Origin: a virus
Length of the DNA: 64,000 bases
Strand: one strand, 5' to 3'
IMG/VR virus record: IMGVR_UViG_3300028920_000035
Location: 83,623 to 147,622 of that record
Shown here piece by piece: positions 4,678 to 56,893 of the stretch. Position 1 is the stretch's first letter, and each line of letters opens with the position of its first letter. A model generated the notes under the pieces. It did not search any database, was not told where the DNA came from, and saw only the letters and a program-made list of their open reading frames with translations. Made by a program: the position numbers and the translations under genes.

Positions 4678-5253
4678 ATGGCCTATCGCTATGACCGTCG
4701 GACGGCGGCCGGGCCCATTCCCCTTGACAAGGGTGATATCAAGGAGCTGGCGGACCGCATCCTGAAGAAGCTGCCTCTATACCTCAAGTTCCGTGACGAC
4801 TACATGGACACTCCCATGCAGAGGGCGCGGGGGTACAATCCCAACCGTTGGCAGTACGAGGTTGAGGAAGGTTTCTCGACGACCAACGTGCGCAACCACC
4901 CGATTCAGGTCGAGGTACATGTTGGCTTCAAAAAGCCTGAAGTTGCGTGGGGTGGGCGTGACTATGTCACCGGGGGAGCGGTTTCGTCACGATGGTATGG
5001 GGCGGATCGACGCGGCCGGGGGCGCGGCTTTGGTCTGCACACCAAGCTGACCGTCAACTCCACGCAATTTGTCGAACAGGCGTTGAAAGCATCAGCAACC
5101 TGGAAGCGCATTCAAGGCGCATTGAATCCCCACAACGAGCGCAAGATTCGAGAAGCCGTGTCACGGGCCCTGGTGCGTGAATGGCCACGTCTACAAGAGC
5201 TGTACCCTCAGGACCCTGACGACGAGTGGGACGAGACGCTCAACCTACCCTAG
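4678..5253 (+). CDS. Unknown protein, 191 aa
   Basis: Start chosen at ATG 4678 (MAYRYDRRTAAG), 25 nt after the previous stop. An upstream in-frame codon would overlap the previous gene. Soluble, mixed-charge protein with an Arg/Gly-rich central segment (RWYGADRRGRGRG) and an acidic C-terminus. No domain recognised. Its 3' end overlaps the convergent minus-strand gene by 14 nt. Confidence 0.6.
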   Translation: MAYRYDRRTAAGPIPLDKGDIKELADRILKKLPLYLKFRDDYMDTPMQRARGYNPNRWQYEVEEGFSTTNVRNHPIQVEVHVGFKKPEVAWGGRDYVTGGAVSSRWYGADRRGRGRGFGLHTKLTVNSTQFVEQALKASATWKRIQGALNPHNERKIREAVSRALVREWPRLQELYPQDPDDEWDETLNLP

Positions 5254-5707
5254 CGACTAGCTGCCGTTGTTTGATTTCGCCGAGCAGCTCGCGAGTGGCA
5301 CGCATCAAGGCCATCCCTGCGACCTCAGGGGCGGACTTCTTGACGACCTCTACTCGCTTGTCAAGCTGGGGGCGCCGGTCGAAGTCGAAGGGTACATAGG
5401 AAACCAGAACCTGGGCAGCGCGGGGTACTGAAAGGGCAATAGAAAAGGCGTCCAGGTGGTGACGTCCGGTAAAGAAGTAGTAGACCACACCACGGGACTC
5501 GCTCGCTCCCAGCTGGTAGCGCTCCCCGGTAGCCTTCGAGATCATGAACATAAAGCGCTCAAGCATAGCGTTGAGGCTCAGCTTGGCTTCGACGAACCCC
5601 TCGCCTGGGTCAAAGGCAACACGCGTACGAACCCAGTTGGGTACCTCCAGCGTCGGACGAAGTCGGTGAAGGTAGTAGCGGGCGGCGACTCTCTTTGCGA
5701 TGCTCAT
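5240..5707 (-). CDS. Unknown protein beginning with the RVAARY motif
   Basis: The start is ATG at 5707, giving MSIAKRVAARYYLHRL and a 155-residue protein. The N-terminal RVAARY motif is shared with several other proteins in this window and strongly supports this start over longer readings. The rest shows hydrophobic strands and helices (ERFMFMISKATGERYQL, HHLDAFSIALSVP) with no known family. A GGTGTA-type promoter motif lies 38 nt upstream on the same strand, back to back with the promoter of the helicase gene. Function unknown. Confidence 0.65.
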   Translation of the reverse strand: MSIAKRVAARYYLHRLRPTLEVPNWVRTRVAFDPGEGFVEAKLSLNAMLERFMFMISKATGERYQLGASESRGVVYYFFTGRHHLDAFSIALSVPRAAQVLVSYVPFDFDRRPQLDKRVEVVKKSAPEVAGMALMRATRELLGEIKQRQLVARVG

Positions 5708-13361: not shown

Positions 13362-13798
13362 TGCGGCAAGTCCAAATCAACTTGAGGGAACGTGGTGGCG
13401 ATGTGCAGGTTTTGCTCATTTCCTCACATCGAGGGTGCTGGGAAGAGCCTTGGGACTTGTTGCGTGGCACGGCCCCTGGGGCCCTGCTGAGCGTCGTTTT
13501 GCGAGAAGATGTGGAGCACGCTCTCCACGGTCTGTCTCAGCCTTTGAGTGCCGCCCTGGGCCTACCCCCAGAGGGGTGCCTGCTCAAGCTCCCGAAGACG
13601 GCTCGGCGCTGTCATCGAGAGCAAAAGTGCCCTCTTTACGACCCACGGGTCTGCCATCTCCAGAGTGGCAAGCTGCCGTTGAGTTTCGAGCCCGCCGGCT
13701 TCGACGACGACCGGCTCCGGCTCCAAATCGCGGAACTGGTCCGGTACTGGCGGGAAGAGGTGTATGTAGTAGTCGTCGAGGAGCCAGAGCCCGCATGA
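13361..13798 (+). CDS. Unknown protein in replication operon, 145 aa
   Basis: Begins at ATG 13361, overlapping the previous stop; a GTG three bases upstream is also possible. A central Cys-containing segment (RRCHREQKCPLYDPRVCHL) has four Cys/His that could bind a metal. The C-terminus is a helix followed by a Val-rich strand (EVYVVVVEEPEPA). No family recognised. ATGA overlap with the polymerase start indicates co-translation with it. Confidence 0.65.
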   Translation: MRQVQINLRERGGDVQVLLISSHRGCWEEPWDLLRGTAPGALLSVVLREDVEHALHGLSQPLSAALGLPPEGCLLKLPKTARRCHREQKCPLYDPRVCHLQSGKLPLSFEPAGFDDDRLRLQIAELVRYWREEVYVVVVEEPEPA

Positions 13799-16700
13799 GT
13801 GACGATGACGACGACCTGATGGCTGACGTGATGGCCGAGATCCTGCCCACTGCTGCCAAGGAGGAGCAGAAGGCACCTGATCTGGATTCTGACGAAGCGG
13901 CTGATCTGGACGATTTCATGGCCGGTATGAACCTCCAGCAGGAGGACACCATCGACCCTGAGCTGCTCAAGCCGTGGATGAAGTACCACAAGATGGAGCT
14001 GGTCCAGGACATCGGTCGGGTGAAGGAGGTCATCAACGGCGCCATCGAGTTCGGGACCTGCTCGCTCGATCTTGAATCCACGGGGCTTGACACCCGCATC
14101 GACTTCGACAGTGGGGGGAAGCCCCACACCAAGTCCAAGGTGGTGGGCTACTGCGTCGGCTACGACGGCAACGGTTACTACATCCCGGTGCGGCACAATT
14201 TCGACCCCATCATGGGCGAAGAGAATCCCAACGTCTCGCCCGCTCTGGTGGACCCCGAGATCACGCGCCTGTGTTACGCGGCTCAGCCGGTCCTGACGGA
14301 AGAAGGCAAGGCCAACGACCCTTTGGCGTCCAACGACATCGCCGAACCCGGTAAGGTCAAGCTCCTGTTCTGGCATGCCAAATTCGACCAGGAAATGCTG
14401 TACCCCGTCACAGGTATAGACTTCTGGCACCCGGAATCCTACGAGGACGGGATGCTCATGTTCTACTGCGTCTATAGCGACGACATGAGCTACGAATTGA
14501 AGCAAAAGGCCAAGCAGTTCCTGCGCATCAAAGACCCGGAAACAGGGGAAGAGTACCCCTACGAGATGATCAAGTACGACAAGCTGTTCCCGAAGGGTAC
14601 CCCCAAGGAGAACCGTCGTATCCACACGCGCTACCCCCGCCCCGACAACGAGGTCACGCGCTACGGTTGTTCAGACGCCATCTGCACGGAGCTGCTCTGC
14701 AAGCTCCCCTGGCTGGTCGAGAGGCTCGAAAAGACCAACCGAGGAATCTACCGTTTGGAGAAGATGACGACTCAGGCCGTGCGCATCATGGAACGGTCCC
14801 GAGTGCTCATCGACAAGGCGGCCATCGAGGCCGTGCGCCAAGAGGCCATCACAGCTCTTAAGGAAGTTGAGAAGCAGATCAAAGGCATCGCTGAGGGGGT
14901 CGGATTCCACGACTTTAATCCAGGCTCAACGGAACAGTTGGCATCCCTGCTCTTTGACAAGAAGTGGCTCAACCTTGAACCGAAGCCTGATAAGACCACC
15001 GAAGGGCAGTACAAGACCGACGCCAAGACCCTGGAAAAGTTGATGGAGCGCCCCGGCGCCCCGGCGATTCTCAAGCTGTCCCTGACCTACCGCCAGATCC
15101 AGAAGGTCCAGGGTACCTACCTCGACAAGATGGTCGAGAACGTTGACGAGTTTGATCAGCTACGGTTCGATTTCAAGCAGCATGGTGCTGCTACAGGCCG
15201 CTTCTCGGCGCCTCAGGAGCAGAAGGAGGAGCGTGCGTTTGGTCGGGAGGGCTACTCGGGCATCCCAATTCAAGGGATCCCCGCTCGCGACAACCCAAAG
15301 AAGCCAAAAGTGGCGGGCTCGCTCCGAAAGGGTTTCATCGCCCGGCCCGGCTACGTCATCGTGAAGGTGGACTACGCGGGGCAGGAACTGCGAATCGTCA
15401 CCAACCTGTCGGGCGAGCCCGTTTGGGAGAAGGAGTTCCTCGAAGGCACGGGCGACCTCCATACCATCACGGCGAAGGCGTTCTTCCCTGGTCTCCAGCG
15501 AACCGACCCCGACTTCAAGGTCAAGCGAACCTCGGGCAAGTGTGTCCACCCCGACACCCTCGTCTGCGGCGTCAAAGGCTATCGGCCTCTACGTAGCCTG
15601 ACGCTATTCCCAAAGGAAAGTGACCGATTTTTGGGGGCCTCGCCTCCCGACGTAGAGATCGACGGGAACCCCGTCGTCGATACCTACAACGGCGGAGTGA
15701 AGAAGCTCTACCATGTCGTGACGAGCAAGGGCATCGTCACTTGCACTGCCAACCATCGTTTCAGGCTTGCGAACGGTTCTCTGGTTCGAGCGGGGGACCT
15801 CCAAAAGGGACAAGAACTAGCTCCCGTTGAGCTTCCCTCGTTGAGGGGGAGGGTAGGGGCTTCACGTCGATTAGGTCTATGGAAGGGTGTGCCGAGGGGT
15901 GAGTATAGACTTGGACTTCCGGAATGCTACTTTGCAGGGCTGTACCTGGGAGATGGTACGGTCAGCAATTCGGGGGCACGGTTGACCCATGGTCGAATAG
16001 GGAAAACCTGCCCCCTGGGCGTACCCTACAAGGAGTGGCAGCAAATCTTGCTCAAGGCCTGCACTGACGTAGGGCTTGACCCCACTCCTGAGGCAACAAG
16101 CCTCTACCTAGGTAGCCGAGTAGTGGTACGCTATCTAGAAGCGTTGGAGTTGGTCGTACCTCGACCGGGTACAGCTCAAGGTCGCATGAAGAACCTGCGG
16201 GTGCCCTCGTGGGTGTTAGAGCAGGGGCAGAAAGGCTTCATGGCATTCCTGGCAGGGCTCTTAGATACTGACGGGTCGGTATCTCACCAAATGCATACTA
16301 TCGAGGTCACAACCAAGGATTTCATCTTCGCGGGACAGTTGGCAGCTCTGGCACAAGCCTGTGGGCTGCCCTTGAGCGTTGAACCAACTTTCAACAAGAC
16401 CTACCGCAAGCACTATGCCCGACTGCACCTGACGGTTGGGTCTGCGTGGTCCTTCCGTAAGCATTTGCGCCATCCAGGCAAGGTTCTTCGGCTAAAGGCC
16501 CCTCAAAAGCAGTCAAGTATAACCAACGAGAACATCGTCAAGAAGGTGTTTCCCGCTGGTAAGAGCGCTTGCCTCGACGTGACTATGGGCACAGTCGACC
16601 ACCTGTACCGTGCCAACGGGATGTTGACTCATAATTCGGCCAACTTCTCGCTCATTTATGGCGGCGGCGTTCAGGCGGTCATGCGTGCCACGGGTTGCGA

Positions 16701-19080
16701 TAAGACGGAGGCGGCTCGCAAACTCGGCAACTTCCACGACAGCGTGCCGAAGTTTGCCAAGTGGGTGAAGAAGCAGCACGCGGGGGTGAAGAGGCATCTG
16801 GGCGTGCGCACAGCATTCGGCCGTTTCATCGCCATTCCAAATGCAGCGGTGAAGGTTGGTGACGTCAAAAAGGACTATTGGGGTCGTCCCATCCTTAAGG
16901 AAGGGCAAGAGCAGCGGTTAACCGATAAGGACGTCCGCATCATGCGGTCCTCGTCCGAGCGAGTCAGCACGAATTACCCCATTCAAGGCTGTCTCGATTC
17001 AAGATCCTTGGTTAATACCCAAGATGGTTGGGTTTCTATCGGTAGTCTTGTTGAGGCTGGGCAACCTTTTGTAGTGTGGACCGGCTCTCGATGGGCCGAA
17101 GCAACAGCCCATGATATGGGCCCCTGCGAGCTGGCTGAGGTAAAGCTCAAGGACGGCACCATTGTTCGCTGTGACACTCGCCACAAGCTGCTGGTCGTCA
17201 GCGACGCTGGCTATCGGTGGGTCGAGTATCAAGACCTTGAGCCTGGCATGGCGGTAGCCACAGCGCTTTGCGAGCCTGTAGAGTATGAACCTTCACCTCT
17301 ACCGTCTATGAGCCAACGCGAACGGTCCCGCGCCCGACCCCAAATCAACGAACTAGAAGCGTTCTGGTATTGGATGGGGCGCTACGTGGGGGACGGTCGG
17401 ATCGACCATCGGGGAGGTATACAGTTCTTCTTTGGGGAGCATGAACGTGAGGCTGTCGACCGGTGCCTTCAATTTTGGGAGGTATTTGGCCTCAACTCAA
17501 CGTGGGGCCTCAAGATACACACGCCGCATAAAAAGGAGTCCTCTCGATACACGGTCAATGTGTGGAGCGTGGACCTTCTGGATTGGCTTAAAGAGTTGGG
17601 GTTTGAGCCCGCCACAGCTCACACCAAGCGATGCCCGCGCCGCATCTTCGGAGAGACTTTGGCTCACCGTCGAGCGTTTTTACGCGGCGTCATGGCGTCG
17701 GATGGCCGCAAGCCTCCGCTTGTTACGGCCAAAGGCAACCCCTACAACGTCCACCTCTGTCAGCGGCCGCTACTTGAGGACCTCAAGCTGTTGTTCCGCA
17801 GCGCTGGGGTCGAATCGGCCTTGCGAGGCCCTTACCGTAGTGGTGAAGACCAGAACGGCGACGATACGATCAGCTACCGTCTGGATCTGAACCGCCGGAT
17901 GTATGAGCGCCATGTCGTGGGCTGCACAGACGTTCGACATCCGAAGTTCTGCGACATGTTTGCGCCTCAGTTCTTGGTCGGTGAGCTTCTGAAAGCAGGC
18001 TCCTGGACACGTGCAGACTTCCCCGATGAGTCGAGCTATAATCTGTACTTACGCCTCAGAGTTGGAGGACGTGTCACGGTTTACACTTTGCAACGTCTCT
18101 GCCAACTGCTGGGCGTCAAGTTGCCGCTCCCTGTCTATGGGTTCAAGCGAATTGTCACAAAACAGGCACTAGGGTGTGTAGAGCACACCTACACGCTGAG
18201 TGTTCAGGACAAGCTGCATCGCTTCGAAGCTGATGGGGTCATCACCAAAAACTCGGGCGCCGACATCTGCAAGATCGCACTCGTCAAGTGCGTCAAGGCG
18301 TTCCACAAGCGTGGATGGTTGCGCAACGGCGGCGACGATTCCGTGCGGATGCTGATGACCGTCCACGACGAGATCGTGTTCGAGATTCGTGAGAGCCGGC
18401 TGATGGATGCCGTGCCAGTTATCAGCGAGGCCATGGAAAGCCCGGACAAGATGACGCGGCCCGCGTGGAAGGTGCCCCTGGTGGTGGAGCCCCTGGTGGG
18501 TCACAGCTGGGACGCTAATGTTGATTGGCTATCCATGATCAAGGGTGTGGACGAGGACGGTAAGCCCTATGAAGTGCCTGAATGGCTGCTCCCGATGATT
18601 GACCTGGAGCGAATTCGCAAGGACGAGGCCGCACGTTTGGAGCGCAAGGGTCAGCCTGCCCCAGTTGTCGCCAAGCCCCAGCCCACCAGTACGCCCGCGG
18701 GCGTACCCCCAGCAGCCGCCGCCACGACGGTGACCACAGCGTCTGCCCCAGCCAAGGTCAAGACGAATAGTTTCCCGAAAGAGACGAAGGAAGCCTACAA
18801 AACGGGCTCAATTGCCACGTTTGCTGTGACTCGGGAGCACCTGACACCAGATTCGGTGTGGATGATTGGCAATGCTCAACTGAACTGCCACCCTGTACGG
18901 GTGGCAGCCGAGCGGGGTTGTAGCAACCGCTGCAACCTGCGCCTGATCACTATCGAGGGGGACCTCCTGATCGACCCGGCGTTCAACAGCGACGGACGAT
19001 GGGACATTGACCCAGAGGCGTTCAGTCGCAAAATGAGGGAGCACAACTTCCCCTACGACTTCCGGATTGACGACAAGTGA
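13795..19080 (+). CDS. polA: Family A DNA polymerase with 3'-5' exonuclease, two inteins
   Basis: ATG 13795 overlaps the preceding stop; longer readings would run through the previous gene. Precursor of 1761 residues, about 975 mature. Exonuclease motifs: D92/E94 (SLDLESTG), D198 (AKFDQE) and Y290xxxD294. Polymerase motif A is VKVDYAGQELRI (D526). Motif B is RTSGK/SANFSLIYGGG, split by intein 1 after K582. NYPIQG/SGADI is split by intein 2. Motif C is MTVHDEIVF (H1524-D-E). There is no 5' nuclease domain, as usual for phage family A replicases. A Pro/Ala/Thr linker and an extra C-terminal domain of about 130 residues with Cys residues follow the polymerase core. Confidence 0.93.
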   Translation: MSDDDDDLMADVMAEILPTAAKEEQKAPDLDSDEAADLDDFMAGMNLQQEDTIDPELLKPWMKYHKMELVQDIGRVKEVINGAIEFGTCSLDLESTGLDTRIDFDSGGKPHTKSKVVGYCVGYDGNGYYIPVRHNFDPIMGEENPNVSPALVDPEITRLCYAAQPVLTEEGKANDPLASNDIAEPGKVKLLFWHAKFDQEMLYPVTGIDFWHPESYEDGMLMFYCVYSDDMSYELKQKAKQFLRIKDPETGEEYPYEMIKYDKLFPKGTPKENRRIHTRYPRPDNEVTRYGCSDAICTELLCKLPWLVERLEKTNRGIYRLEKMTTQAVRIMERSRVLIDKAAIEAVRQEAITALKEVEKQIKGIAEGVGFHDFNPGSTEQLASLLFDKKWLNLEPKPDKTTEGQYKTDAKTLEKLMERPGAPAILKLSLTYRQIQKVQGTYLDKMVENVDEFDQLRFDFKQHGAATGRFSAPQEQKEERAFGREGYSGIPIQGIPARDNPKKPKVAGSLRKGFIARPGYVIVKVDYAGQELRIVTNLSGEPVWEKEFLEGTGDLHTITAKAFFPGLQRTDPDFKVKRTSGKCVHPDTLVCGVKGYRPLRSLTLFPKESDRFLGASPPDVEIDGNPVVDTYNGGVKKLYHVVTSKGIVTCTANHRFRLANGSLVRAGDLQKGQELAPVELPSLRGRVGASRRLGLWKGVPRGEYRLGLPECYFAGLYLGDGTVSNSGARLTHGRIGKTCPLGVPYKEWQQILLKACTDVGLDPTPEATSLYLGSRVVVRYLEALELVVPRPGTAQGRMKNLRVPSWVLEQGQKGFMAFLAGLLDTDGSVSHQMHTIEVTTKDFIFAGQLAALAQACGLPLSVEPTFNKTYRKHYARLHLTVGSAWSFRKHLRHPGKVLRLKAPQKQSSITNENIVKKVFPAGKSACLDVTMGTVDHLYRANGMLTHNSANFSLIYGGGVQAVMRATGCDKTEAARKLGNFHDSVPKFAKWVKKQHAGVKRHLGVRTAFGRFIAIPNAAVKVGDVKKDYWGRPILKEGQEQRLTDKDVRIMRSSSERVSTNYPIQGCLDSRSLVNTQDGWVSIGSLVEAGQPFVVWTGSRWAEATAHDMGPCELAEVKLKDGTIVRCDTRHKLLVVSDAGYRWVEYQDLEPGMAVATALCEPVEYEPSPLPSMSQRERSRARPQINELEAFWYWMGRYVGDGRIDHRGGIQFFFGEHEREAVDRCLQFWEVFGLNSTWGLKIHTPHKKESSRYTVNVWSVDLLDWLKELGFEPATAHTKRCPRRIFGETLAHRRAFLRGVMASDGRKPPLVTAKGNPYNVHLCQRPLLEDLKLLFRSAGVESALRGPYRSGEDQNGDDTISYRLDLNRRMYERHVVGCTDVRHPKFCDMFAPQFLVGELLKAGSWTRADFPDESSYNLYLRLRVGGRVTVYTLQRLCQLLGVKLPLPVYGFKRIVTKQALGCVEHTYTLSVQDKLHRFEADGVITKNSGADICKIALVKCVKAFHKRGWLRNGGDDSVRMLMTVHDEIVFEIRESRLMDAVPVISEAMESPDKMTRPAWKVPLVVEPLVGHSWDANVDWLSMIKGVDEDGKPYEVPEWLLPMIDLERIRKDEAARLERKGQPAPVVAKPQPTSTPAGVPPAAAATTVTTASAPAKVKTNSFPKETKEAYKTGSIATFAVTREHLTPDSVWMIGNAQLNCHPVRVAAERGCSNRCNLRLITIEGDLLIDPAFNSDGRWDIDPEAFSRKMREHNFPYDFRIDDK
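15541..16635 (+). other. Intein 1 in DNA polymerase (motif B site)
   Basis: A 365-residue insertion with N-terminus CVHPDTLVCGVKGY, block B TANHRF, LAGLIDADG motifs FAGLYLGDG and LAGLLDTDG, and C-terminus RANGMLTHN followed by Ser+1. The site is right after the catalytic Lys of the O-helix motif, so unspliced polymerase should be inactive. Confidence 0.93.
16990..18252 (+). other. Intein 2 in DNA polymerase (YPIQG site)
   Basis: A 421-residue insertion with N-terminus CLDSRSLVNTQDGWV, block B DTRHKL, LAGLIDADG motifs WMGRYVGDG and LRGVMASDG, and C-terminus EADGVITKN followed by Ser+1. The penultimate residue is Lys instead of His, an atypical C-terminal cleavage site. It interrupts the conserved NYPIQGSGAD motif of family A polymerases. 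Confidence 0.9.
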
Positions 19081-27055: not shown

Positions 27056-28318
27056 ATGCCTGATAAACGTTGCAGTTTCTGCGGGCGACCCGCAAACGAG
27101 GTCAAAAGTTTGATCGCAGCGGCTGACGACGGCCCCTTCATCTGCGACCGGTGTATTGGCCGGGCCGGCCAGAGGATCGCTCAGTCCAGCAAGACTGAGG
27201 GTGACGGTGAGGGGCGCAAGCCGCTGCCCTCACCTCGGGAGCTGAAAGCCCATCTCGACGACTACGTGATTTCCCAGGAGACAGCCAAGATCGTGCTGTC
27301 GTCGGCCTTCTACAAACACTATCTGCGGCGCGAGGCCACACGAAGGGGGGCCCTACCGGGGGCCAGCGAGGCCGAGCCTGAGAAGTCCAACGTCGTCTTG
27401 GCGGGGCCGAGCGGCTGTGGCAAGACCCAGTGTGCACGGGCCATTGCTAAGAAGCTGGGAGTCCCATTCTACGTGGGCGACGCAACTACCTTGACCCAGG
27501 CGGGGTATGTCGGGGCGGATGTTGAGTCACTTCTTCAGGGGCTGATCGCAGAGGCCGGTAACGACGTTGAGAAAGCCCAGTGGGGCATCATCTTCCTCGA
27601 CGAGGGTGACAAACTCGCCCGTAAGTCGGGGCGGGGGTCCACGGGCTACCGAGACGTGACAGGGGAGGGCGTCCAGCAGGCGCTACTTAAGCTCGTCGAG
27701 GGGTCGAAGGTGAACGTCCCTCGCGGCATGGCTCGGATGATCTCGACCAACCAGGAGTCGGACATGATCGACACAACCAACATCCTGTTCGTCTTCGCGG
27801 GTTCATTTGCAGGCATCGAGGAAATTGTTGGCCAGCGGCTCAACAAGAATACCGGAGTGGGGTTCGGCAAGGACAGTAAGCGCGACTTCACGTCGCGCGA
27901 GGTCTACGAGAACATCACGGACGAGGACATTTTGGAGTTCGGGATCATCCCCGAGCTGGCGGGTCGCCTGCCCGTAGTGACCAGTGTGTTGCCGCTCACA
28001 CAGGACGAGATGTACCGGATCCTGACCGAGACCAAGGACGCCTTGGTCAAGCAATTCCGTTTCCAGTTCCGTCTGGATCGAATCGACCTCCAGTTTGAAG
28101 AAGCCGCGCTGCGGGAGATTGCCAAGCAGGCGTGTGATAGTCCCAAGGGCGCCCGCGCGTTGCGGGGTATCGTCGAAAAAGCCCTGGCCCCCTACGTTTT
28201 CGCGTTTGCGGGCCCTAACTCGGAAGCAAGCCGCATTGTCGTGACCGAAGCTCTCATCAAGGGCGAGGGTGAGGCCCTCGTCACACGACGCGCGCATGCT
28301 GTGGCTGCACAGGCGTAG
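27056..28318 (+). CDS. clpX: ClpX ATPase, phage-encoded
   Basis: 420 residues, the normal ClpX length. The N-terminal C4 zinc domain (CSFCGRP...CDRC) is followed by the AAA core: Walker A GPSGCGKT (Lys123), pore loop GYVG, Walker [10 protein letters not shown] (D182/E183), [21 protein letters not shown] and sensor 2 [13 protein letters not shown]. The position of the ClpP-binding IGF loop is occupied by VGF, so ClpP docking may be retained. No ClpP gene is in the window. A likely role is to redirect host ClpP or unfold selected proteins during infection. It has its own near-leaderless promoter motif. Confidence 0.95.
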
Positions 28319-28509: not shown

Positions 28510-28534
28510 TCTTTTTGTGGGACGTGCCCCAGTG

Positions 28535-29299
28535 ATGACCGTCGCAAGCCGTGTAGCCACCCGCTGGAAAGCCGCCAACGTTGTCCCCTTTAGGGGCCGT
28601 CCCAGAGGTCCTCAGGTGGCCATTGGAAGCCGCAAGTACGTTTTGAGCGACTACTGGCCCATGGGAACGGCTGGTGACGGTGAGGCTCCCGCAGCAGGAG
28701 CCCGGGTCATCGACGTGGGGGGCGACAAGTTCCGCTGGTTGTGGGCCTATGACACTGACAAGCAGGTTCTCGCCATGTGGCGCTACACAGACGGGGATGA
28801 GAAGCACTACGAGAACGCCCACCGTGCGGCTCAGCACATTCACAAGCTGGAGAAGCGAGGGCAGCTCAATCGTGTCACCAATGCCGAGTTTCGGATAATC
28901 GAGCGCGAGATGAGCCGTCGCTATGAGGATGTCATCAAAACGCTTCGGGAACACGCCCGGTCTCTCGGCGGCGATTGGCAGGAGCAGGTCAACGCCATCG
29001 CCCGTGATTTCTTCGACCACAAGGTCCGCCCCCTCATCGAGCGAGCCCTGAGTGACGCCGCCCGTGGTGCCGTCCCGATGGGGTTCAGGTTCAATGAGCG
29101 TATACCCCAGAGCCGTGATCAGCAGATTCGGGCTCACATCGTCAGTCAGATGGTCCACCAGCGGTTCAACGAGCGCTTGATCGAGGACACGATGCGCACC
29201 CAAGGGCTCGATCCCGAGATGAGAGGGGTGGATAACCAAGCTGCCTACTGGGCAGTGAGCGAGCTCAGACAAGATGTGTACGAAGAGTACCTACGGTGA
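28535..29299 (+). CDS. Unknown helical protein starting with an RVA-R motif
   Basis: ATG 28535 gives MTVASRVATRWKAANVV, a variant of the RVAARY motif seen in several proteins here, which favours this start over GTG 28517. 254 residues. The middle is a small beta-rich part (FRWLWAYDTDKQVLAMWRY), then long charged helices to the C-terminus. No family recognised. The next gene starts inside its stop codon. Confidence 0.65.
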   Translation: MTVASRVATRWKAANVVPFRGRPRGPQVAIGSRKYVLSDYWPMGTAGDGEAPAAGARVIDVGGDKFRWLWAYDTDKQVLAMWRYTDGDEKHYENAHRAAQHIHKLEKRGQLNRVTNAEFRIIEREMSRRYEDVIKTLREHARSLGGDWQEQVNAIARDFFDHKVRPLIERALSDAARGAVPMGFRFNERIPQSRDQQIRAHIVSQMVHQRFNERLIEDTMRTQGLDPEMRGVDNQAAYWAVSELRQDVYEEYLR

Positions 29300-37337: not shown

Positions 37338-40300
37338 ATGGGTATCGCCGCGCGGGTTGCCGCTCGCTACAAGAGCAAGAAGACGACCGACAAGGGCAAC
37401 GTCATCTACGAGTATAGCACTGCTCAGGTCCAGCATCGCAACCGCGAAAAAGCTAAACGCCTGGAAAAGCTGGAGTCCAACGTCACCAAACTGCGGACTC
37501 AAGTTGAGAAGGACCTCAGCGCCAAGGACGTCAAGAAGCGGCAGACCGCACTCGCGGTGGGCCTCATTGATCATACGTTTGAACGAGTGGGGAACGATGA
37601 AAGCGCTGACGAAGGTCACTTTGGCGTCACCGGCTGGCAGAAGAAGCACGTCACGTTCTCGGGCGGCAAAGCGACCCTTCAATACATCGGCAAGTCGGGG
37701 ATCGAGCAGGAGAAGACCGTCACCGACCAGAAGCTAGTCACCGAGCTGAAACGGGCCGCAGACGCCTGTGGGGACGATTCAGACTGCCTGCTGGCGGATG
37801 TGAGCGCAGAGGACGTCAACGCCTATCTCAAGCCCTACGATGTGACAGCCAAGGACCTGCGGGGCTTCCATGCCAACCGGGTCATGCGAGAGAAGCTCCA
37901 GACCGCGCGCAAGGGTCAGCTTCCCAACGACAAGAAGAAGCGAGAGGAGAAGCTCAAGGCTGAATGGAAGAAGGCGCTTGAGGCCACGGCCAAAGCGGTG
38001 GGGCACGAGCCTTCAACGCTGGGTAACCAGTATCTCGTGCCGGGACTCCAGGACGACTTCATGAGGGACGGCGTGGTCAGCGAGCCCGGCAGCAAGACCG
38101 CAGGCGTCGTCAAGCTCGACCTCGCGTGGGTCGAGAAGATGCGCAAGGACTTCTTGACCCTGCTCAAGAACATCCCCCACATCAAGACCTTCAAGGAGGC
38201 CCATCGAGTCCGCGAGGGCCTTCGGGTCTACCGCGAACAGTTCGACAAGCTATTCCACGAGCGGTTCCTCCGGCACACCCTCAAGTACGACTACGAGGAC
38301 TACGGGATCAGCGAGGACTACGCCAAATACTACACCAAGCAGTTGGGTACTCCGTCGTGGGACTTCTACATCGCGCTGGCAGAGATGCCGATCGGCTTCG
38401 TGGACGACTACTGGGACGAAGACCGCCTGATGGCCCGCTTCACGCAGGAAGCCCCCAAGTGGGAGACTCGCCTCAAGCGCAAGGCCCAGAAGTTCTGGAA
38501 GGTACTCCGAGACGTGCTCCAGGACTTCAAGAACCGGGAGCGGGAGATCCAGGTCAAGACCCTGGACGTGGAACAGGTGACGCTCGAAGGGTTCCGCGTC
38601 CAGGTGCGGGGGTTCGACCCGAGCGACGACATTGACGTCGAGTCACTGGAGGTCTTCAAGAAGGGGCTGAGGATCTACCGACGCAACGCGGCGGCTCGCT
38701 ACCCCCGCTTGCTCAAGGACCAGGTGCCGATCGTCTACGACTGTGAAGTGAATCTGGACAAGGGCGGGACCTACAGTCACAGCGGCCTGATCACGTTCTA
38801 TGCCTCGGCGGTCATCAAGGAGCCCCCCGCTCGTGCCGCCCACATCCTTGCTCACGAGATGGGGCACCACGAGTGGCGTCTGCTCGATGGGAAGGCACGG
38901 GAGTTCTGGGAGACGGCCATCGCAGGCGACTACGGCGACATCGACCTAGCCGAAGTTGTAGCCAAGTGGCCCAGGGGGGCGTGGGCCTTCGACTTCACCA
39001 GGTACATGGCCGACACCGACCCTGTACTAGCCCTTCAGATGGAGGGCCTCGTCCACAGCCAGAACCACGAAGAGCTGAACACCAAGGAGGACTTCCAGGC
39101 CCTGTTGAGCAGCGGCCAGCGGACGCTGCGGGTGCCCAAGACGCCCATCACGGGGTACGCCAACAAGAACCCCCAGGAGGCGTTCTGCGAGGCTGTGGGT
39201 CTGCTGGTGGCCTACGGACCCCGGGCCCTCCACGAACGCGTACGCGGCTGGCTGGGCATCATCCTGGGCAACGAGGTCAAGGTCGCGGCCCGCGTGGCCG
39301 CCCGCTACCGCGCGGCCTTTGACGGCTCGACGCCGTTCGGACCGATGGACCCCGACAGCGTGATCAAGCGGGCCACCCTGGCCCATCGCGTGGCGCGCCG
39401 CTTCATCGCCGACAGCTACGGCGACCCGAAGACCTACCTCGACGCGATGACCGAGGCGCTCCGACGCTACCAGATGTACCGTGACCTCTTGCCGACGATG
39501 CGCAAGGCAGAGCGGTGGGTCGACCAGAACCCGGGCGTGCCCCCGGGCACCGCCCTGACGGGGGACGGCGAGCTGGACAAGGTGCTGCACAACTTCCGGA
39601 TGTTCCTCGTGAAGTATGCCTACGCCGTCCAGGCCATGTATCCGACGATGTGGCGCGCAGGCGGGTCCAAGGTCTTCCTTGCGCTGCTCCAGCAGTACAG
39701 CTTCTCCGACCGGCGCCTACGGTCAAGGGTCGAGCAGGGGGCCAAGTTCTATGGCAAGACACGCTCCAGGAAGCCTCGGCCCGCCCAGTCTGTAGCCGTC
39801 TTCGACAAGGCGTTCACCCAGTATCTGGAGCACCTCGAAACCATCCGCGATGCACTGAAGAAGGGCGTCCCTCATGGTGCTGAAGGTGCAGCCCAGGCGA
39901 AGATCCCCGCGGGCCCCTTCACCCTGGTCAACACGGGCGGCTTCGACGACAAGACGATGGATCTCGTCGCCAAGCTCGCCGTCAAGGCCGCGGGCCTGCT
40001 CAAGCAGCACGGGTACGGCCGTGCCGTCTACGGCGACATCCACATCAGCAACACGGTGGGGCGGTCGTCAAAGGTGTTGGCATTCTACTCGGTCAACACC
40101 GACGAGATGTTCGTTCGGGCCAACCTCAAGGGGAAGTTCGACAGCGCGCTTCACACCATCCTGCACGAGCTGGGGCACCGGTACGAGAAGTTCGTCGCTG
40201 CGAACGACATCCGCGCCATCTACCGCCGCCTGAGCAACCAAACGTCGGACCAGCGCCGGTCCTCCGACCTGAAGTACCCCAAGGAGGGGGAGACCGCCGT

Positions 40301-40571
40301 CGAGCGCGGCAAGACCTTCGTCGTGTCAGGCACCGAGTACACGGGACGTGGCGTCCGCGTGAATCTCAGGCTTCAGGACGACGCGACCAAGCAGTTCCAC
40401 ACGACAATCGACGGCTGGTACGCGATGACCGGCCAGGTCAGCCCCGCAGGCGCCTTCATCAGCAAGTACGCCCGCACGGACCCGAGCGAAAACTTTGCGG
40501 AGATGGTCGCCCACCACTGTCTTGGCACGCTGCCCCAGGAGCAAGTCGAGCTGCTCGAAGCGATCATCTGA
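37338..40571 (+). CDS. Topoisomerase IB fused to two HExxH metalloprotease-like domains
   Basis: 1077 residues beginning MGIAARVAARYKSKK. Residues about 30-250 form a type IB topoisomerase core: R83-VGNDE, ATLQYIGKSG (K119), TAKDLRGFHANR, and TLGNQYLVPG with candidate nucleophile Tyr232. After a helical region comes zincin 1: H506-EMGH, with EAFCEAVGLL as third-ligand region. A second motif VKVAARVAARYRAAF and LAHRVARRFIA (about 650-690) precede zincin 2: H943-ELGH with ENFAEMVAHH. I know no such fusion. Relaxation of supercoils and proteolysis are inferred from motifs; the protein may be virion-packaged or processed. Confidence 0.82.
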   Translation: MGIAARVAARYKSKKTTDKGNVIYEYSTAQVQHRNREKAKRLEKLESNVTKLRTQVEKDLSAKDVKKRQTALAVGLIDHTFERVGNDESADEGHFGVTGWQKKHVTFSGGKATLQYIGKSGIEQEKTVTDQKLVTELKRAADACGDDSDCLLADVSAEDVNAYLKPYDVTAKDLRGFHANRVMREKLQTARKGQLPNDKKKREEKLKAEWKKALEATAKAVGHEPSTLGNQYLVPGLQDDFMRDGVVSEPGSKTAGVVKLDLAWVEKMRKDFLTLLKNIPHIKTFKEAHRVREGLRVYREQFDKLFHERFLRHTLKYDYEDYGISEDYAKYYTKQLGTPSWDFYIALAEMPIGFVDDYWDEDRLMARFTQEAPKWETRLKRKAQKFWKVLRDVLQDFKNREREIQVKTLDVEQVTLEGFRVQVRGFDPSDDIDVESLEVFKKGLRIYRRNAAARYPRLLKDQVPIVYDCEVNLDKGGTYSHSGLITFYASAVIKEPPARAAHILAHEMGHHEWRLLDGKAREFWETAIAGDYGDIDLAEVVAKWPRGAWAFDFTRYMADTDPVLALQMEGLVHSQNHEELNTKEDFQALLSSGQRTLRVPKTPITGYANKNPQEAFCEAVGLLVAYGPRALHERVRGWLGIILGNEVKVAARVAARYRAAFDGSTPFGPMDPDSVIKRATLAHRVARRFIADSYGDPKTYLDAMTEALRRYQMYRDLLPTMRKAERWVDQNPGVPPGTALTGDGELDKVLHNFRMFLVKYAYAVQAMYPTMWRAGGSKVFLALLQQYSFSDRRLRSRVEQGAKFYGKTRSRKPRPAQSVAVFDKAFTQYLEHLETIRDALKKGVPHGAEGAAQAKIPAGPFTLVNTGGFDDKTMDLVAKLAVKAAGLLKQHGYGRAVYGDIHISNTVGRSSKVLAFYSVNTDEMFVRANLKGKFDSALHTILHELGHRYEKFVAANDIRAIYRRLSNQTSDQRRSSDLKYPKEGETAVERGKTFVVSGTEYTGRGVRVNLRLQDDATKQFHTTIDGWYAMTGQVSPAGAFISKYARTDPSENFAEMVAHHCLGTLPQEQVELLEAII

Positions 40572-52021: not shown

Positions 52022-52375
52022 TTAATCAAGGTCCCCCAGGCGCTCGAACGCCGTGGGTAGCTCTTTAGACTCTTTGCGGATGGCGTTGCACACGACATTT
52101 GTCAGCATGCCAAGCCGTTGAGGGGGCTCCTGGAACCGCACAAGGCCGTCGACGATCCGCTCTTGTTGCGACAGGGATTGAGCCAAAATCTGGTTTGCCC
52201 TGTCAAGAGACTCAAAGCGCTCTTGTTGCGCGGCAATTTGTTCTTTGAGAGCGTTGACCTGTTCTTGGAGTTCGACCGCGCACCGGAAAGCTCGGTGCTT
52301 GAACCAAACCGACACCATAATCGCAAGCAGGGCTACGGTGCAGGAAATGACCGACCATGACAGGCTTTCTAACAT
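52022..52375 (-). CDS. Single-TM coiled-coil protein (holin/spanin-like)
   Basis: 117 residues. TM helix at about 7-25 (VISCTVALLAIMVSVWF), then a coiled coil (VELQEQVNALKEQIAAQQER). ATG 52375 is 7 nt after a GGTGTA-type motif, with AGGGGG between. Topology fits an i-spanin or lysis regulator upstream of the endolysin gene. No holin motif, so the assignment is by position. Confidence 0.65.
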   Translation of the reverse strand: MLESLSWSVISCTVALLAIMVSVWFKHRAFRCAVELQEQVNALKEQIAAQQERFESLDRANQILAQSLSQQERIVDGLVRFQEPPQRLGMLTNVVCNAIRKESKELPTAFERLGDLD

Positions 52376-52382
52376 TGCCCCC

Positions 52383-52394
52383 TACATACACCGA
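52383..52394 (-). promoter_or_regulatory. GGTGTA-type promoter motif for the 52375 lysis genes
   Basis: TCGGTGTATGTA on the minus strand; the hexamer ends 7 nt before ATG 52375. The spacer GGGGGCA may serve as ribosome-binding site. Confidence 0.5.
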
Positions 52395-52430
52395 GCCGGC
52401 CTGATAAAGCACTCATTGGCCGGGCCAGTC

Positions 52431-53795
52431 ATGAACCACCGATTCCCGCCCTGCACCGCCACCTCGAAGAGGGAGTTGGCCAAGGAGCTGGAGGAGCGCG
52501 AGAGCATCATCATCGCGGCCGTACAGGCCGGTGAATACCAAGTCGATTGGAAGACCCTCACCATCGAAGAGGGCAGCCATGCTGTCGAGCTACACGTCTT
52601 CGCCGATGCTCTGAAGATCGATGGGGTTCGGGTCAATGCCAGTGCCCAGACCTGCCAGCACATTGCCGACCTCATCGGTGCTTGCTTGCTGACACCCAAA
52701 ATCGCGGATCAGGTGTGGCTCCAGCGGGAGACCACGCTCTCCCCCCGCACCCAAAGCATCAACGCCACGACACCCGGCATGATCAAGCACTCGGAGGCCG
52801 TTGAGGAGCAACTCGAAGGGCAGACGGGGCTCCTCGATACCATCGGCAAGCTGTGGGTCCTCGACGAGGACATCTTGCGCAACCAGCGGCTCCCCCAGCA
52901 AGCCATGAACTATGGGTGGCACTTCGCCCCTGGGCGGAAGTGGGGTGGTATCAATGGCAACCCCACGGCGAGCCTCATCAAGGACCCCGAGACCCGTCAG
53001 TACGTCCACATGATCCAGTCCCGTGGATGGCACCATGACATCCACCATGTCGACTACTGTTTGGCCCCCTCAACTCGCGTTTTGACGGCTGATTTGTGTT
53101 GGGTCGACATCGCTTCCCTTGTAGAGGGGGATCAACTCATCGGATTCGATGAGAAGCTGTCAAGGCCGCACCTACGGCGAGCGACCGTTCAAAAAGTCAC
53201 CCTCCTGGAGCAACCTTGCTTCGAGGTCGAAACGTCACGGGCTACGGTTGTCGCTTCTGCGGCACATAGATGGCCTGTGAAGGGAGCCGCCAGGGCTACT
53301 AACCGAGGGGTGGCCAACGGAAAGGCTTGGTCCAATACTCGCAGGTGTATGGGCTGGGTCGCGACTGAGGACCTCAAACCAGGGCAGCAGATCCCTTATC
53401 TCTGTGACCCTTGGGAGCAAGACACTTCCTGGGACGGGGCCTGGATGGCCGGCATCATCGACGGGGAAGGGTGGCTGAGTGGAACTACTTTTGGGGTAGC
53501 CCAGGAGGAGATTCATGCAGAGGTCCTGAACATCCGAAATGCTGGAGTTCGCCCGGTGGTGGGCATTCAGACCAGCACTGGTACTTTCATCGCGGAGGGG
53601 CTACTATCGCACAACTCACAAATCGTCCGATTGGTGGCCCGCGACTGCACTCTAGACGGCAAGCACGCAGACCTTGCCGACGTACTCAAGGGTGATCTAG
53701 CTTACCTGGTCAGCCACAACGGACCCCTGAGCTTTTCCCGACACCCGTTCGTCGAGCACGAGCACGTCGGCATGACCATCTTTGGAGACGCCTGA
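52431..53795 (+). CDS. Conserved phage/bacterial protein interrupted by a mini-intein
   Basis: ATG 52431 chosen; precursor of 454 residues, 268 after removal of a 186-residue intein. Mature sequence: an N-terminal helical part, TPKIADQVWLQRE, AMNYGWHFAPG, HDIHHVDYSQIVRLVARDC and the end GPLSFSRHPFVEHEHVG. The YGWH ... DYSQ.VRLV pattern recalls a family of bacterial and phage hypothetical proteins I cannot name. The intein sits right before the Ser of DYS, which suggests that site is important. Function unknown. Confidence 0.7.
   Translation: MNHRFPPCTATSKRELAKELEERESIIIAAVQAGEYQVDWKTLTIEEGSHAVELHVFADALKIDGVRVNASAQTCQHIADLIGACLLTPKIADQVWLQRETTLSPRTQSINATTPGMIKHSEAVEEQLEGQTGLLDTIGKLWVLDEDILRNQRLPQQAMNYGWHFAPGRKWGGINGNPTASLIKDPETRQYVHMIQSRGWHHDIHHVDYCLAPSTRVLTADLCWVDIASLVEGDQLIGFDEKLSRPHLRRATVQKVTLLEQPCFEVETSRATVVASAAHRWPVKGAARATNRGVANGKAWSNTRRCMGWVATEDLKPGQQIPYLCDPWEQDTSWDGAWMAGIIDGEGWLSGTTFGVAQEEIHAEVLNIRNAGVRPVVGIQTSTGTFIAEGLLSHNSQIVRLVARDCTLDGKHADLADVLKGDLAYLVSHNGPLSFSRHPFVEHEHVGMTIFGDA
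53058..53615 (+). other. Mini-intein (degenerate endonuclease)
   Basis: A 186-residue insertion: N-terminus CLAPSTRVLTADLCWVD, block B-like SAAHRW, one LAGLIDADG-like motif (MAGIIDGEGW) and C-terminus IAEGLLSHN followed by Ser+1. The block B Thr is Ser and the second endonuclease motif is missing, so splicing may be retained but homing should be lost. It is half the length of the other four inteins here. Confidence 0.85.
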
Positions 53796-53800
53796 TCATC

Positions 53801-56242
53801 ATGGGACTCGGCGCTGAACTGATCCAAAGGATCGAGAGAGCGCTCGCTGCCAAGGATGGGCGGGCCCTCGAAGAGATTGCCAAGTGGGCCCGCACGAACT
53901 TCCGCTTCGAGTCAAGCAAGACGCCACGAGGTCAGAAGGACCTCAAGGCAGCCGCCCAGCGGTTCTTTGGCTCTTTGACGCTTGCCACGGGTTTGACCGA
54001 AGATGGGTGGAAGCACACGGCCGAGTGGTGGAAAAGTTTCAAGCGTGACGTGCCTTCCCTCGTACTCCACTTCAGCGCCGAGGGCGATCAGGCGCGTGGC
54101 AAGAAAGAGCAGGTGGTCGAGCTGAAGTTGAGCCATGCTACCTACTTCAACCGATCGGGCATGGCCGAGGCCACGTTCCGCAAGTACGCCAAAGCCGTTG
54201 AAGAGACGCTGGCCTCACTGAAGGGGTGGCGCACGAAAGCCCTGAATGGCAACCTGAAGGTTGTCTTCGTGGGTTCCCAGATGAGGGTGCAAGGCAAGTA
54301 CCGCGAGGCCCTGGACGAGATGTGGGTCAAGGCCACTCCCAAGGTCCTCAAACGCTCGGGCGGCACCTACGGGAGCCCCGAGTACATCCTCGTGCATGAG
54401 CTGGGTCACCGCTACGAGCGTTTCAACTCGCTACCCACCGTGGGCTTCGGTCGGGATGCCGTGTGGCGCACGACACGCTACAGCTGGAACGACGGTGAGG
54501 ACTTTGCCGAGCTGTTTGCTCTGGGGCACTTCAACATCCGAGGCCAGTGGGGGGAGAAACTCGACCTCTTTGAGAAGACGATGGCGGGTAAGACGGCCAA
54601 CATCATCGAGGTGGGTAGGTGCAACCACCAAGCACTCACTCAGTGGTGGGAGCAAAAGGCCACAGACTTGACGTTTATCGACGCGGGGATTGCAGCTCGG
54701 GTTGCTGCCGAGTACACGAAAGGTAAGCCGAGCTACCCCCATCGCACGGACCGCGCTCAACCGACCAATGCGAACCTGTGGGACGACGTGCTGAACGTCG
54801 CGAGTGGTCGTCGCAACGAGCTGAGCATCGGGGACCGCACCATTCACGCACCCAACGAAGGACGTGGCTTCAGCAACATGCCCCAGAACCCACAGGGGAT
54901 CAGCTGGGCCGTCAAACAATACAAAGGATTTGGCGGAGGCTGGAAGGAAGCCAGGAGGGTCACGGTAGAATTCCAAAATCGAGCTGGCCGCATCCTCGAC
55001 GCAGGGGGCATCATGGCGGTCCCTCTGGGCAATGAGCAAGAGCGTCTGTGGATGGCCCGTCTGGCCCACACGGGGTACGCCGAGAAGATTGGCGAGAATG
55101 AGCGAGAGACCCTGTGGGTACGCACCGGAACCAAAAAGATCTCTGACCAGGGCATCCTGTTTCTGTCCAAGCTCAGCAATGGCATCAAGGGCAAGTTCGA
55201 CCTTGACGCCGCCAAGGGTGCTTTGGAGCCGCTCGGGTTCAAGTTCGAGGACGCGGTGGCGGCCCTTCCCCTCGACTACTTCGGTATCAAGAAGGTGGTC
55301 AACCAGAAGCACCCTGAGCTCCCCTGGGACGTAACCGACAGCTCCCTCATCTCGCCTCGACGGGGAGCGGCCGCATTCGAGACCGAAACTGAGGCCCTAA
55401 AAGCGTTGAAGCGGGTCCAAGGGCTCTTCACGGCCAGCCCACCCAAGGGGCCCGCCCGCCCCAAAAAGGGCGAGCTGTACGCCTACTGGAAAAGTACCCG
55501 GGTCCGCCCCGGGTTCGACAAGAGCACCTTCGAGCTGGAGTGGGTCGTCAAGGTCTGGGTGGGCGTACCCAGTCTGCGCATCACGTCGCCCAAGGGAGTG
55601 GTTCTGGACATCCCCACGTTGGATCGGGACCTGCGCAAGAACACCAGCTCGGCCAGCTTTTGGACGTTCATTTACAAGAAGTGCGAAGGCCAAGCCTTGG
55701 CCCAGGCCAAGCTTCAAGAGCTGGGAGAGGGGGCCATCGAAGCGGCCAAACCCCAGCCCAAGAATCCTCGAGGTCTAGCCAACACAGGCACGTGTGGTGT
55801 TTGCGAGCAGAACGTCAAGCTCAGCAAGGGCCGCATCATGCGCCATGGGTGGAAGGTCCAGGGCAGTCGCTGGAAGGGCTCCTATGGTAACTCGTGGCAC
55901 TCTGGACCGTGCTTTGGGGTAAATTACGAGCCATGGGAGGTCAGCTCCAGATCAGCCAAGGACTTCCTCAAGCACCTCCAGAAGGCCGTTCTACCGGTCG
56001 CCGAGGCACGACTGGGACAGGCCAAGCTCAAGCCCGATGTCCTGGTGGTCCGGGACTTCCGTAGTCAACCGCAAGAGTTTCCCCGCGGCGAGGAGAAGAC
56101 CGCCACGCGATTCAAGTACGACGAGGCTTGGGGGAAACGGTTAGCGAGCGCTGAGGAAGAGCTGAAGGCCGTTAAGGACGCCATCCAATTCTTCGAGACA
56201 CGGATTCAAGGCTGGAAAGCCCAACCCCTCCCTGGAAAGTGA
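53801..56242 (+). CDS. Zincin-like multidomain protein with RVAAEY motif
   Basis: 813 residues. Zincin: H199-ELGH-RYE with GEDFAELFALG as third-ligand region, the same layout as zincin 2 of the 37338 protein. A RVAAEY motif (GIAARVAAEYTKGK, about 305) follows and starts a second part with an NVASGRRNELSIGDRTIHAP block. Near residue 660 a CGVCEQNV...MRHGW...GPCFG zinc-like module occurs, and the C-terminus is helical. The gene follows the mini-intein gene by 5 nt. Proteolytic activity is inferred from HExxH. Confidence 0.75.
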   Translation: MGLGAELIQRIERALAAKDGRALEEIAKWARTNFRFESSKTPRGQKDLKAAAQRFFGSLTLATGLTEDGWKHTAEWWKSFKRDVPSLVLHFSAEGDQARGKKEQVVELKLSHATYFNRSGMAEATFRKYAKAVEETLASLKGWRTKALNGNLKVVFVGSQMRVQGKYREALDEMWVKATPKVLKRSGGTYGSPEYILVHELGHRYERFNSLPTVGFGRDAVWRTTRYSWNDGEDFAELFALGHFNIRGQWGEKLDLFEKTMAGKTANIIEVGRCNHQALTQWWEQKATDLTFIDAGIAARVAAEYTKGKPSYPHRTDRAQPTNANLWDDVLNVASGRRNELSIGDRTIHAPNEGRGFSNMPQNPQGISWAVKQYKGFGGGWKEARRVTVEFQNRAGRILDAGGIMAVPLGNEQERLWMARLAHTGYAEKIGENERETLWVRTGTKKISDQGILFLSKLSNGIKGKFDLDAAKGALEPLGFKFEDAVAALPLDYFGIKKVVNQKHPELPWDVTDSSLISPRRGAAAFETETEALKALKRVQGLFTASPPKGPARPKKGELYAYWKSTRVRPGFDKSTFELEWVVKVWVGVPSLRITSPKGVVLDIPTLDRDLRKNTSSASFWTFIYKKCEGQALAQAKLQELGEGAIEAAKPQPKNPRGLANTGTCGVCEQNVKLSKGRIMRHGWKVQGSRWKGSYGNSWHSGPCFGVNYEPWEVSSRSAKDFLKHLQKAVLPVAEARLGQAKLKPDVLVVRDFRSQPQEFPRGEEKTATRFKYDEAWGKRLASAEEELKAVKDAIQFFETRIQGWKAQPLPGK

Positions 56243-56245
56243 TTC

Positions 56246-56893
56246 ATGGCATTCATCGGCATTAAGCTACCTGAGGGCGCAGCCCGAGTGCTGCACAGGA
56301 TCGATGGCATCCCTGGCGACCGGGTTCCCCGAGACCACGCGCACGTGACCATGGTTTTCTTGGGGGATGAAGTCCCGTTTACAGTCCTGAATCGTGTCAT
56401 CGAGGTGATTGCCAAGCTTGGTGAGACGACACAGCCCTTCCCCTGCTACACGAGCTTGGTCTCAACGTTCCCCTCCGATTCCGATTCCGACTCCGACACG
56501 GTGCCCATCATCTGTCGCGTCAACTCAAACGAGCTGCACGACCTGCAAGCTCGTCTGTGCAAGGAACTCGACAAGGCGCGGGTGCCCTACTCAAAGAAGT
56601 ACCCCGAGTACAAGCCACACACGACACTGGCCTTTGCACCGTCCAAGAATGCCGAGGTCTGGCACGATCGAACCATTCCTACGGTGAGTTGGGGCGTCAA
56701 CGAGATCACGCTGTGGGGTGGGGATGAGGGGGATGAGCGATTGGTCGTCACCGTGCCCTTCGCTCTCAAGCTTGAACTTCCCAAGCGGGTGGCCGCACGC
56801 TACCGGTTCAAGCATCTTCATCATCTTCATCCTTGCCACCATCTTCCTGGTCGTCGCTGCTGGATACCTCTTCATCGTCCCCGAGCGCATTGA
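56246..56893 (+). CDS. 2H phosphoesterase-like protein with C-terminal RVAARY
   Basis: 215 residues. HxT motifs at H33-V-T and H125-T-T (HAHVTMVFLG, KPHTTLAF) define the 2H family (2'-5' RNA ligase/cyclic phosphodiesterase). Phage 2H enzymes include ones that degrade 2'-5' or cyclic signal nucleotides; the substrate here is unknown. At about residue 185 it ends KLELPKRVAARYRFK, followed by a low-complexity His/Leu tail overlapping the convergent gene by 86 nt. Confidence 0.8.
   Translation: MAFIGIKLPEGAARVLHRIDGIPGDRVPRDHAHVTMVFLGDEVPFTVLNRVIEVIAKLGETTQPFPCYTSLVSTFPSDSDSDSDTVPIICRVNSNELHDLQARLCKELDKARVPYSKKYPEYKPHTTLAFAPSKNAEVWHDRTIPTVSWGVNEITLWGGDEGDERLVVTVPFALKLELPKRVAARYRFKHLHHLHPCHHLPGRRCWIPLHRPRAH

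Follow-up and report, generated by a model that had tools for sequence, protein, structure and literature searches.

A recurrent RVAxR(Y/W/F)L peptide on a zincin-bearing multi-module protein and other accessory proteins of huge phages, a possible capsid-targeting tag for injected effectors

Phage T4 possesses a proven capsid-targeting sequence (CTS), for which the first ten residues of IPIII suffice (PMC9026906), and its internal proteins are diverse defence proteins in which the CTS alone is conserved (PMC3012670). DarB of phage P1 likewise bears an N-terminal capsid packaging signal (PMC9024508). Passages of Iyer et al. 2017 (PMC5512222) describe phage polyvalent proteins as multi-module proteins with zincin peptidase hubs, 2H phosphoesterases, variable domain order and proposed delivery to the host. 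In bacterial microcompartments (BMC), diverse enzymes carry an encapsulation peptide at one or the other end, an amphipathic helix attached through a disordered linker (PMC12339742). Here we describe an 813-residue zincin-bearing protein encoded at 53801-56242 in a window (the whole stretch of DNA analysed) of 64,000 nucleotides, bases 83,623-147,622 of the 147,622-base IMG/VR virus record IMGVR_UViG_3300028920_000035. The protein carries a variant of a peptide, RVAxR(Y/W/F)L, that recurs on unrelated proteins of huge phages. We give about an even chance to the reading, drawn by analogy with T4, that RVAxRY is a capsid-targeting tag for injected effectors and that the 53801 protein is a tagged multi-module effector.

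The plus-strand open reading frame (ORF) is set in operon-like spacing, as the preceding ORF ends 5 bases before it and a 2H phosphoesterase gene starts 3 bases after it. Module limits, taken from tblastn against related genomes, are residues 1-268 for A, about 299-411 for B and about 416-812 for C. All motifs named in a preliminary description of the ORF (H199-ELGHRYE, EDFAEL, RVAAEY and a CxxC/MRHGW/GPCFG module) are present, with RVAAEY at residues 300-305 (DNA 54698-54715). Judged by its sequence, the CxxC/MRHGW/GPCFG segment is the probable zinc-binding end of module C. The features of the locus, with position-specific scoring matrix (PSSM) scores for tags where available, are as follows.

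53801..56242, plus strand: 813-residue modular protein, order zincin, RVAAEY tag, module B, module C
53801..54604, plus strand: module A, probable zincin domain with N-terminal helical extension, residues 1-268; orthologues in L223, L224/G001, L225, L226/G004 and L227
54395..54409, plus strand: HExxH zinc motif H199-E-L-G-H203, invariant
54497..54511, plus strand: E233-D-F-A-E237, candidate third zinc ligand helix; E/F/A/E invariant in orthologues
54686..54715, plus strand: GIAARVAAEY tag separating modules A and B, PSSM score 15.3
54734..55033, plus strand: module B (LWDD...RTIHAPNEGRG...WAVKQY.GFGGGW); elsewhere only in the L223 record and G001, there preceding the zincin
55046..56236, plus strand: module C; in other phages a separate gene or in a different fusion
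55793..55912, plus strand: C665-x2-C668 ... H682 ... C704 (CxxC, MRHGW, GPCFG), invariant in A7; phrog_28271 E 5.5e-7
56246..56893, plus strand: next gene, 2H phosphoesterase (RNA 2',3'-cyclic phosphodiesterase-like); PF13563 E 3.3e-13, TIGR02258 1.4e-11
56786..56803, plus strand: RVAARY tag of the 2H protein, near its C-terminus

In an unbiased count over distinct genes, RVAAR was the commonest 5-mer in genomes G001, G002 and G004, with HELGH second in G001. The strict pattern RVAxR[YFWH] matched 58 times in six genomes, as opposed to about 1.3 matches by shuffling and 1 in reversed proteins. A 12-column profile detected 92 tags in 76 of 1,428 genes (about 5%) of six large-phage genomes (reversed control 1, shuffled 3); because it was trained on strict matches of the same genomes, these controls, and not the score, carry the significance. 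With the tag masked, the tag-bearing genes fell into 44 unrelated families, the safer figure because kinship between genomes inflates some counts. Genes were called with a simple codon-usage script that missed some, such as 5240-5707 on the minus strand. At the DNA level, 14 records gave 46 pattern matches versus 3 for the backwards pattern; small IMG/VR contigs, in which the pattern hits antisense frames as well as a single repeated family of phage proteins, were left out of the tag counts. A strict 26-base pattern matched three times in the huge phage LR745208 (control 0) and was absent from Mx1 and Tunturi_5. A chance motif in GC-rich ORFs is ruled out by the reversed, shuffled and backwards-pattern controls. 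No mention of RVAARY, VAARYL, RVARRYL or similar strings was found in the literature searched. Tags were N-terminal in 43 cases versus 13 expected, a class that depends on start-codon choice, and C-terminal in 14 versus 8 expected (e.g. MASRVAARYLEKTRRV and MAERIADRYLKE, each at the protein end); about 60% lay no more than 40 residues from the N-terminus or 30 from the C-terminus. The tag is real, and it is repeated on unrelated proteins near N-termini, at C-termini and between modules.

A Pfam and PHROG scan covered 52 tag-carrying proteins, including both window proteins of the 53801 operon. Among the commonest 25 families, TopoIB (5), GNAT (4), 2H (2), lethal-factor-like zincin (2) and SWIM (2) were joined by single cases such as CCA/polyA polymerase, HAD RNA-repair, SAM lyase, C39 peptidase, DnaJ and ferritin, and none was a capsid, tail or replisome family. 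Scanned singly, the majority of tagged proteins had no family match. A sample of 138 untagged genes held RecA/UvsX, NAD ligase, clamp loader, sigma factors, DNA methyltransferases and HNH nucleases. The tag is placed on accessory enzymes and not on recognised capsid, tail or replication families.

The tag consensus, [ILAV]-A-x-R-V-A-A-R-[YWF]-L-x-[AK], probably forms a short amphipathic helix, as its hydrophobic moment is highest at 80-100 degrees per residue (z 9.7 versus shuffles; column-permutation p 0.08). Such a helix at either terminus or between domains would also suit an address for some other compartment or hub that the phage builds (replication compartment, scaffold, RNA polymerase or clamp), much as BMC encapsulation peptides place short amphipathic helices at the N- or C-terminus of diverse cargo enzymes; those peptides have another sequence and another container, and the analogy is one of mechanism only. 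We consider a destination of this sort unlikely, since replication proteins, its expected residents, are not seen among the tagged families listed and the permutation test for helicity reaches just the value given above. A basic, amphipathic, terminal peptide might instead bind membrane and take effectors to the host inner membrane. This is highly improbable given a weak, Ala-rich hydrophobic face and a recognisable cargo that shows no membrane theme and consists mostly of nucleic-acid, nucleotide and acetyl-transfer enzymes.

The preliminary description had likened the 53801 protein to a topoisomerase fusion encoded elsewhere in the window, whose zincins lie at residues 506 (HEMGHHE) and 943 (HELGHRYEKF) and whose tags begin at residues 6 and 652 (RVAARY) and 684 (RVARRF).

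37338..40571, plus strand: 1077-residue TopoIB - zincin - tag/tag - zincin protein; PF01028 E 4.4e-27, residues 32-227
37353..37370, plus strand: N-terminal RVAARY tag of the TopoIB fusion, PSSM score 29.5
39291..39308, plus strand: internal RVAARY tag of the TopoIB fusion, PSSM score 27.6
39387..39404, plus strand: internal RVARRF tag of the TopoIB fusion, PSSM score 22.1

Zincin and tag are indeed common to both proteins, but their remaining modules differ. Pairwise alignment of the 53801 zincin with the C-terminal zincin of 37338 confirmed similarity beyond HExxH (tblastn E 4.6e-5, 34% over 98 residues, 113-210; phmmer E 6e-5; three-sequence profile 9.7e-7, then 4e-31 on iteration). The aligned core, 28% identical, comprises an upstream Y-G-x-x-x-I strand, the HELGHRY helix and a Y...ExFAExF helix, and the insert separating the two zinc-ligand helices is large and variable in the family (30 to 140 residues). 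Across six large-phage genomes, iterative searches extended the family to 22 genes, and the 407-kb G001 holds about ten of these. Two adjacent zincin paralogues with tags at both ends occur in G001, for example at 325352-328791.

The similar HELGHRYE and E-x-FAE motifs and the core identity could be taken to mean that the 53801 and 37338 proteins arose by recent local duplication or shuffling of one zincin plus RVAARY unit, as had been proposed. The phylogeny contradicts this: the 53801 zincin clusters with orthologues from five other huge phages (support 100/99), and the 37338 C-terminal zincin with G001_205705 and G004_108532 (90/95). The tree thus gives each window zincin a supported group of its own, shared with orthologues from other huge phages, so that by sequence the two are old paralogues, and recent duplication of the pair is rejected. 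The tag is also placed differently relative to each zincin. As it occurs on 44 unrelated families and on either side of the zincin, a shared zincin plus RVAARY unit is not supported, and we find an origin by local shuffling hardly credible.

H199, E200, H203 and ExFAE are invariant in the six orthologues and invariant or near-invariant in 15 paralogues. The 53801 protein accordingly displays both the HExxH helix and the later-helix Glu ligand of lethal-factor-like zincin metallopeptidases. It has in common with the lethal-factor type (Pfam ATLF, PF07737) the Y-x6/7-E-x-F-A-E helix motif, but scores are weak (best PDB sequence match, of lethal-factor type, E 0.034; Pfam ATLF match among tagged relatives, 0.0012), and the large variable insert between zinc-ligand helices sets it apart as a separate phage family. 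An AlphaFold2 model of residues 80-300 from 15 sequences (an earlier six-sequence run modelled the catalytic half poorly) reached pLDDT 81 and pTM 0.72. The top Foldseek matches of the model were zincins (lethal factor, LTA4H, collagenase), the best with E 1.9e-3 and TMq 0.44; none reached E <= 0.001, and TMq was at most 0.46. The modelled fold of module A is probably that of a zincin. A single GTDB scan for the family in bacterial genomes returned no relative and therefore gave no host clue.

The modules are real independent units: related huge phages encode them as genes of their own, in the opposite order or joined to a 2H phosphoesterase. G001 has the order B-A, as does the 437-kb L223 record, there followed by a terminal tag. 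In G004, module A is directly fused behind a 2H phosphoesterase, with RVAARSY in between, and module C is an adjoining separate gene. L225 and L227 encode standalone A proteins of 308-315 residues with an N-terminal tag, and G005 contains C inside an 866-residue frame whose parts are separated by RVAKKW, RVAEEWF and RVALRF. A tag adjoins the zincin in five of the six zincin-A orthologues, on its N-terminal side in L225 and L227, on its C-terminal side in L223, at the 2H-zincin junction in G004 and at the zincin-B junction here. Outside the present record, all contigs found to carry the A family measured 208-452 kb, and module B was found in only two other records. In a search of a phage collection, module C was the sole module matching isolates, and no isolate was found carrying the zincin, the 2H gene, the zeta-like kinase or module B; TopoIB matched LR745208, three Xanthomonas phages and one Erwinia phage.

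Consistent with polyvalent proteins, unrelated effector domains appear here in changing order across relatives, and domains of the published set are present (zincin in the 53801 protein; 2H in the neighbouring gene, fused in G004). Unlike the polyvalent proteins, the tag is also carried by many small single-domain proteins, and the RVAxRY peptide and modules B and C do not occur in the passages of PMC5512222 retrieved by term. The proposed modularity of the protein and the co-occurrence of zincin and RVAxRY are both borne out, the latter by tags in 12 of 22 zincin genes versus 64 of 1,406 others (odds ratio 25, Fisher p 9e-11, relatedness ignored).

This enrichment, the location of tags between modules that are separate genes elsewhere, and the zincin processing of polyvalent proteins proposed in passages of Iyer et al. 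2017 (PMC5512222) would all fit a protease recognition or processing site, with the phage zincins or a prohead protease cleaving at RVAxRY and so dividing fused polyproteins into single modules. We nonetheless judge such a role quite improbable. Many of the tags near termini lie 5-15 residues from one end of a small protein, a place where cleavage would release nothing; the standalone zincins of L225 and L227 have no second module to release; and G010 is tagged, yet no zincin of the 53801 family was found there.

Capsid targeting draws on the comparison with T4. Of two module-C homologues (E 8.7e-35), the one in G004 (G004_318883) carries an RVAGRY tag, and the one in G014 (L250/L251) begins with MKIHEILTEE at the place of the tag; G014 is a 34-kb contig whose terminase, SSB, UvsX-like and sheath PHROGs mark it as T4-like. 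In T4 itself, ipII and ipIII begin with MKTYQEFIAEA and ipI with MKTFKEF, and about eleven ORFs of G014 have MK..EFL.E-like (T4-CTS-like) starts, including a PRTase, a zeta-like kinase, a nucleotidyltransferase and a NUDIX protein. G014 thereby offers a rich set of candidate head-packaged proteins, one of which contains HEMTH. RVAxRY resembles the CTS in being a short peptide that is all that otherwise unrelated accessory or anti-host proteins have in common (44 families here; PMC9026906 and PMC3012670 for T4), and either peptide is found on one cargo family in different phages. Phage P1 offers a further likeness in DarB/DdrB (PMC9024508 and passages of PMC5512222), DarB being a large effector with an N-terminal capsid-targeting signal and DdrB being zincin-bearing and processed; in P1 a single protein is described as bearing the signal, whereas RVAxRY is repeated on dozens.

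If the tag is a capsid-targeting signal, it would form a short helix through which cargo is docked in the prohead in the manner of the T4 CTS, and the cargo would then be injected with the DNA. In the host, the zincin might serve as an effector protease or release neighbouring modules, and multi-tag fusions would be formerly separate tagged cargoes that have since merged. We infer both injection and zincin protease activity. The existence of standalone tagged zincins, and of about ten paralogues in one genome, makes an injected protease with host proteins as its targets a likelier role for the zincin than self-processing alone. More tentatively, and at slightly less than even chances, RVAxR(Y/W/F)L may be a position-independent address tag, unrelated to the T4 signal, that packs dozens of enzymes per particle and marks about 5% of genes as injected effectors, with lineages swapping cargo between tag systems.

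Several points set the tag apart from the T4 signal or weigh against capsid targeting. The tag is unrelated in sequence to the T4 signal (RVAxRYL versus MKTYQEFIAEA) and its consensus is not MKTYQEFIxEA-like, so that any likeness would be in function only; moreover, the CTS is N-terminal, whereas RVAxRY is also C-terminal and internal. A single family, module C, provides the case in which homologous cargo apparently bears one tag in place of the other, and its L235 orthologue shows no tag. At the threshold used, tags are present in little more than half of the zincin genes (12/22). Pfam models of the T4 gp21 protease and gp23 capsid matched 0/10 records, with control genomes also silent. Finally, packaging of the tagged proteins is something we infer from genomes.

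Two further tagged genes lie in the window, the second of which had no match in a Pfam scan.

28517..29299, plus strand: 260-residue protein without assigned function, N-terminal tag SRVATRW (28550-28567), PSSM score 25.3
5240..5707, minus strand: 155-residue protein, N-terminal tag MSIAKRVAARYYL, between two plus-strand genes

Inteins are found in several replication genes of the phage. A family A DNA polymerase frame of 1942 residues (13252-19080, plus strand) is interrupted by intein/LAGLIDADG sequence (PF00476, PF14528, PF14890), and an intein with a LAGLIDADG domain is present in each of an SNF2-type helicase (5819-8707) and a DnaB-type helicase (9660-12395), both on the plus strand. Directly upstream of the 813-residue gene, the plus-strand frame 52245-53795 looks intein-like by eye (CLAPSTRVLTADLCWVDIASL ... 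GLLSHN-S), with no Pfam intein match. The phage also encodes a ClpX-like ATPase with a C4 zinc finger (27056-28318, plus strand).

Most huge-phage genes are without a known role, and a tag readable from sequence would pick out unknown proteins that act together. If RVAxRY is a packaging tag, it would show which proteins reach the host first. A tag that works at either end of its cargo would be a new handle for protein delivery, in phages that are much larger than T4.
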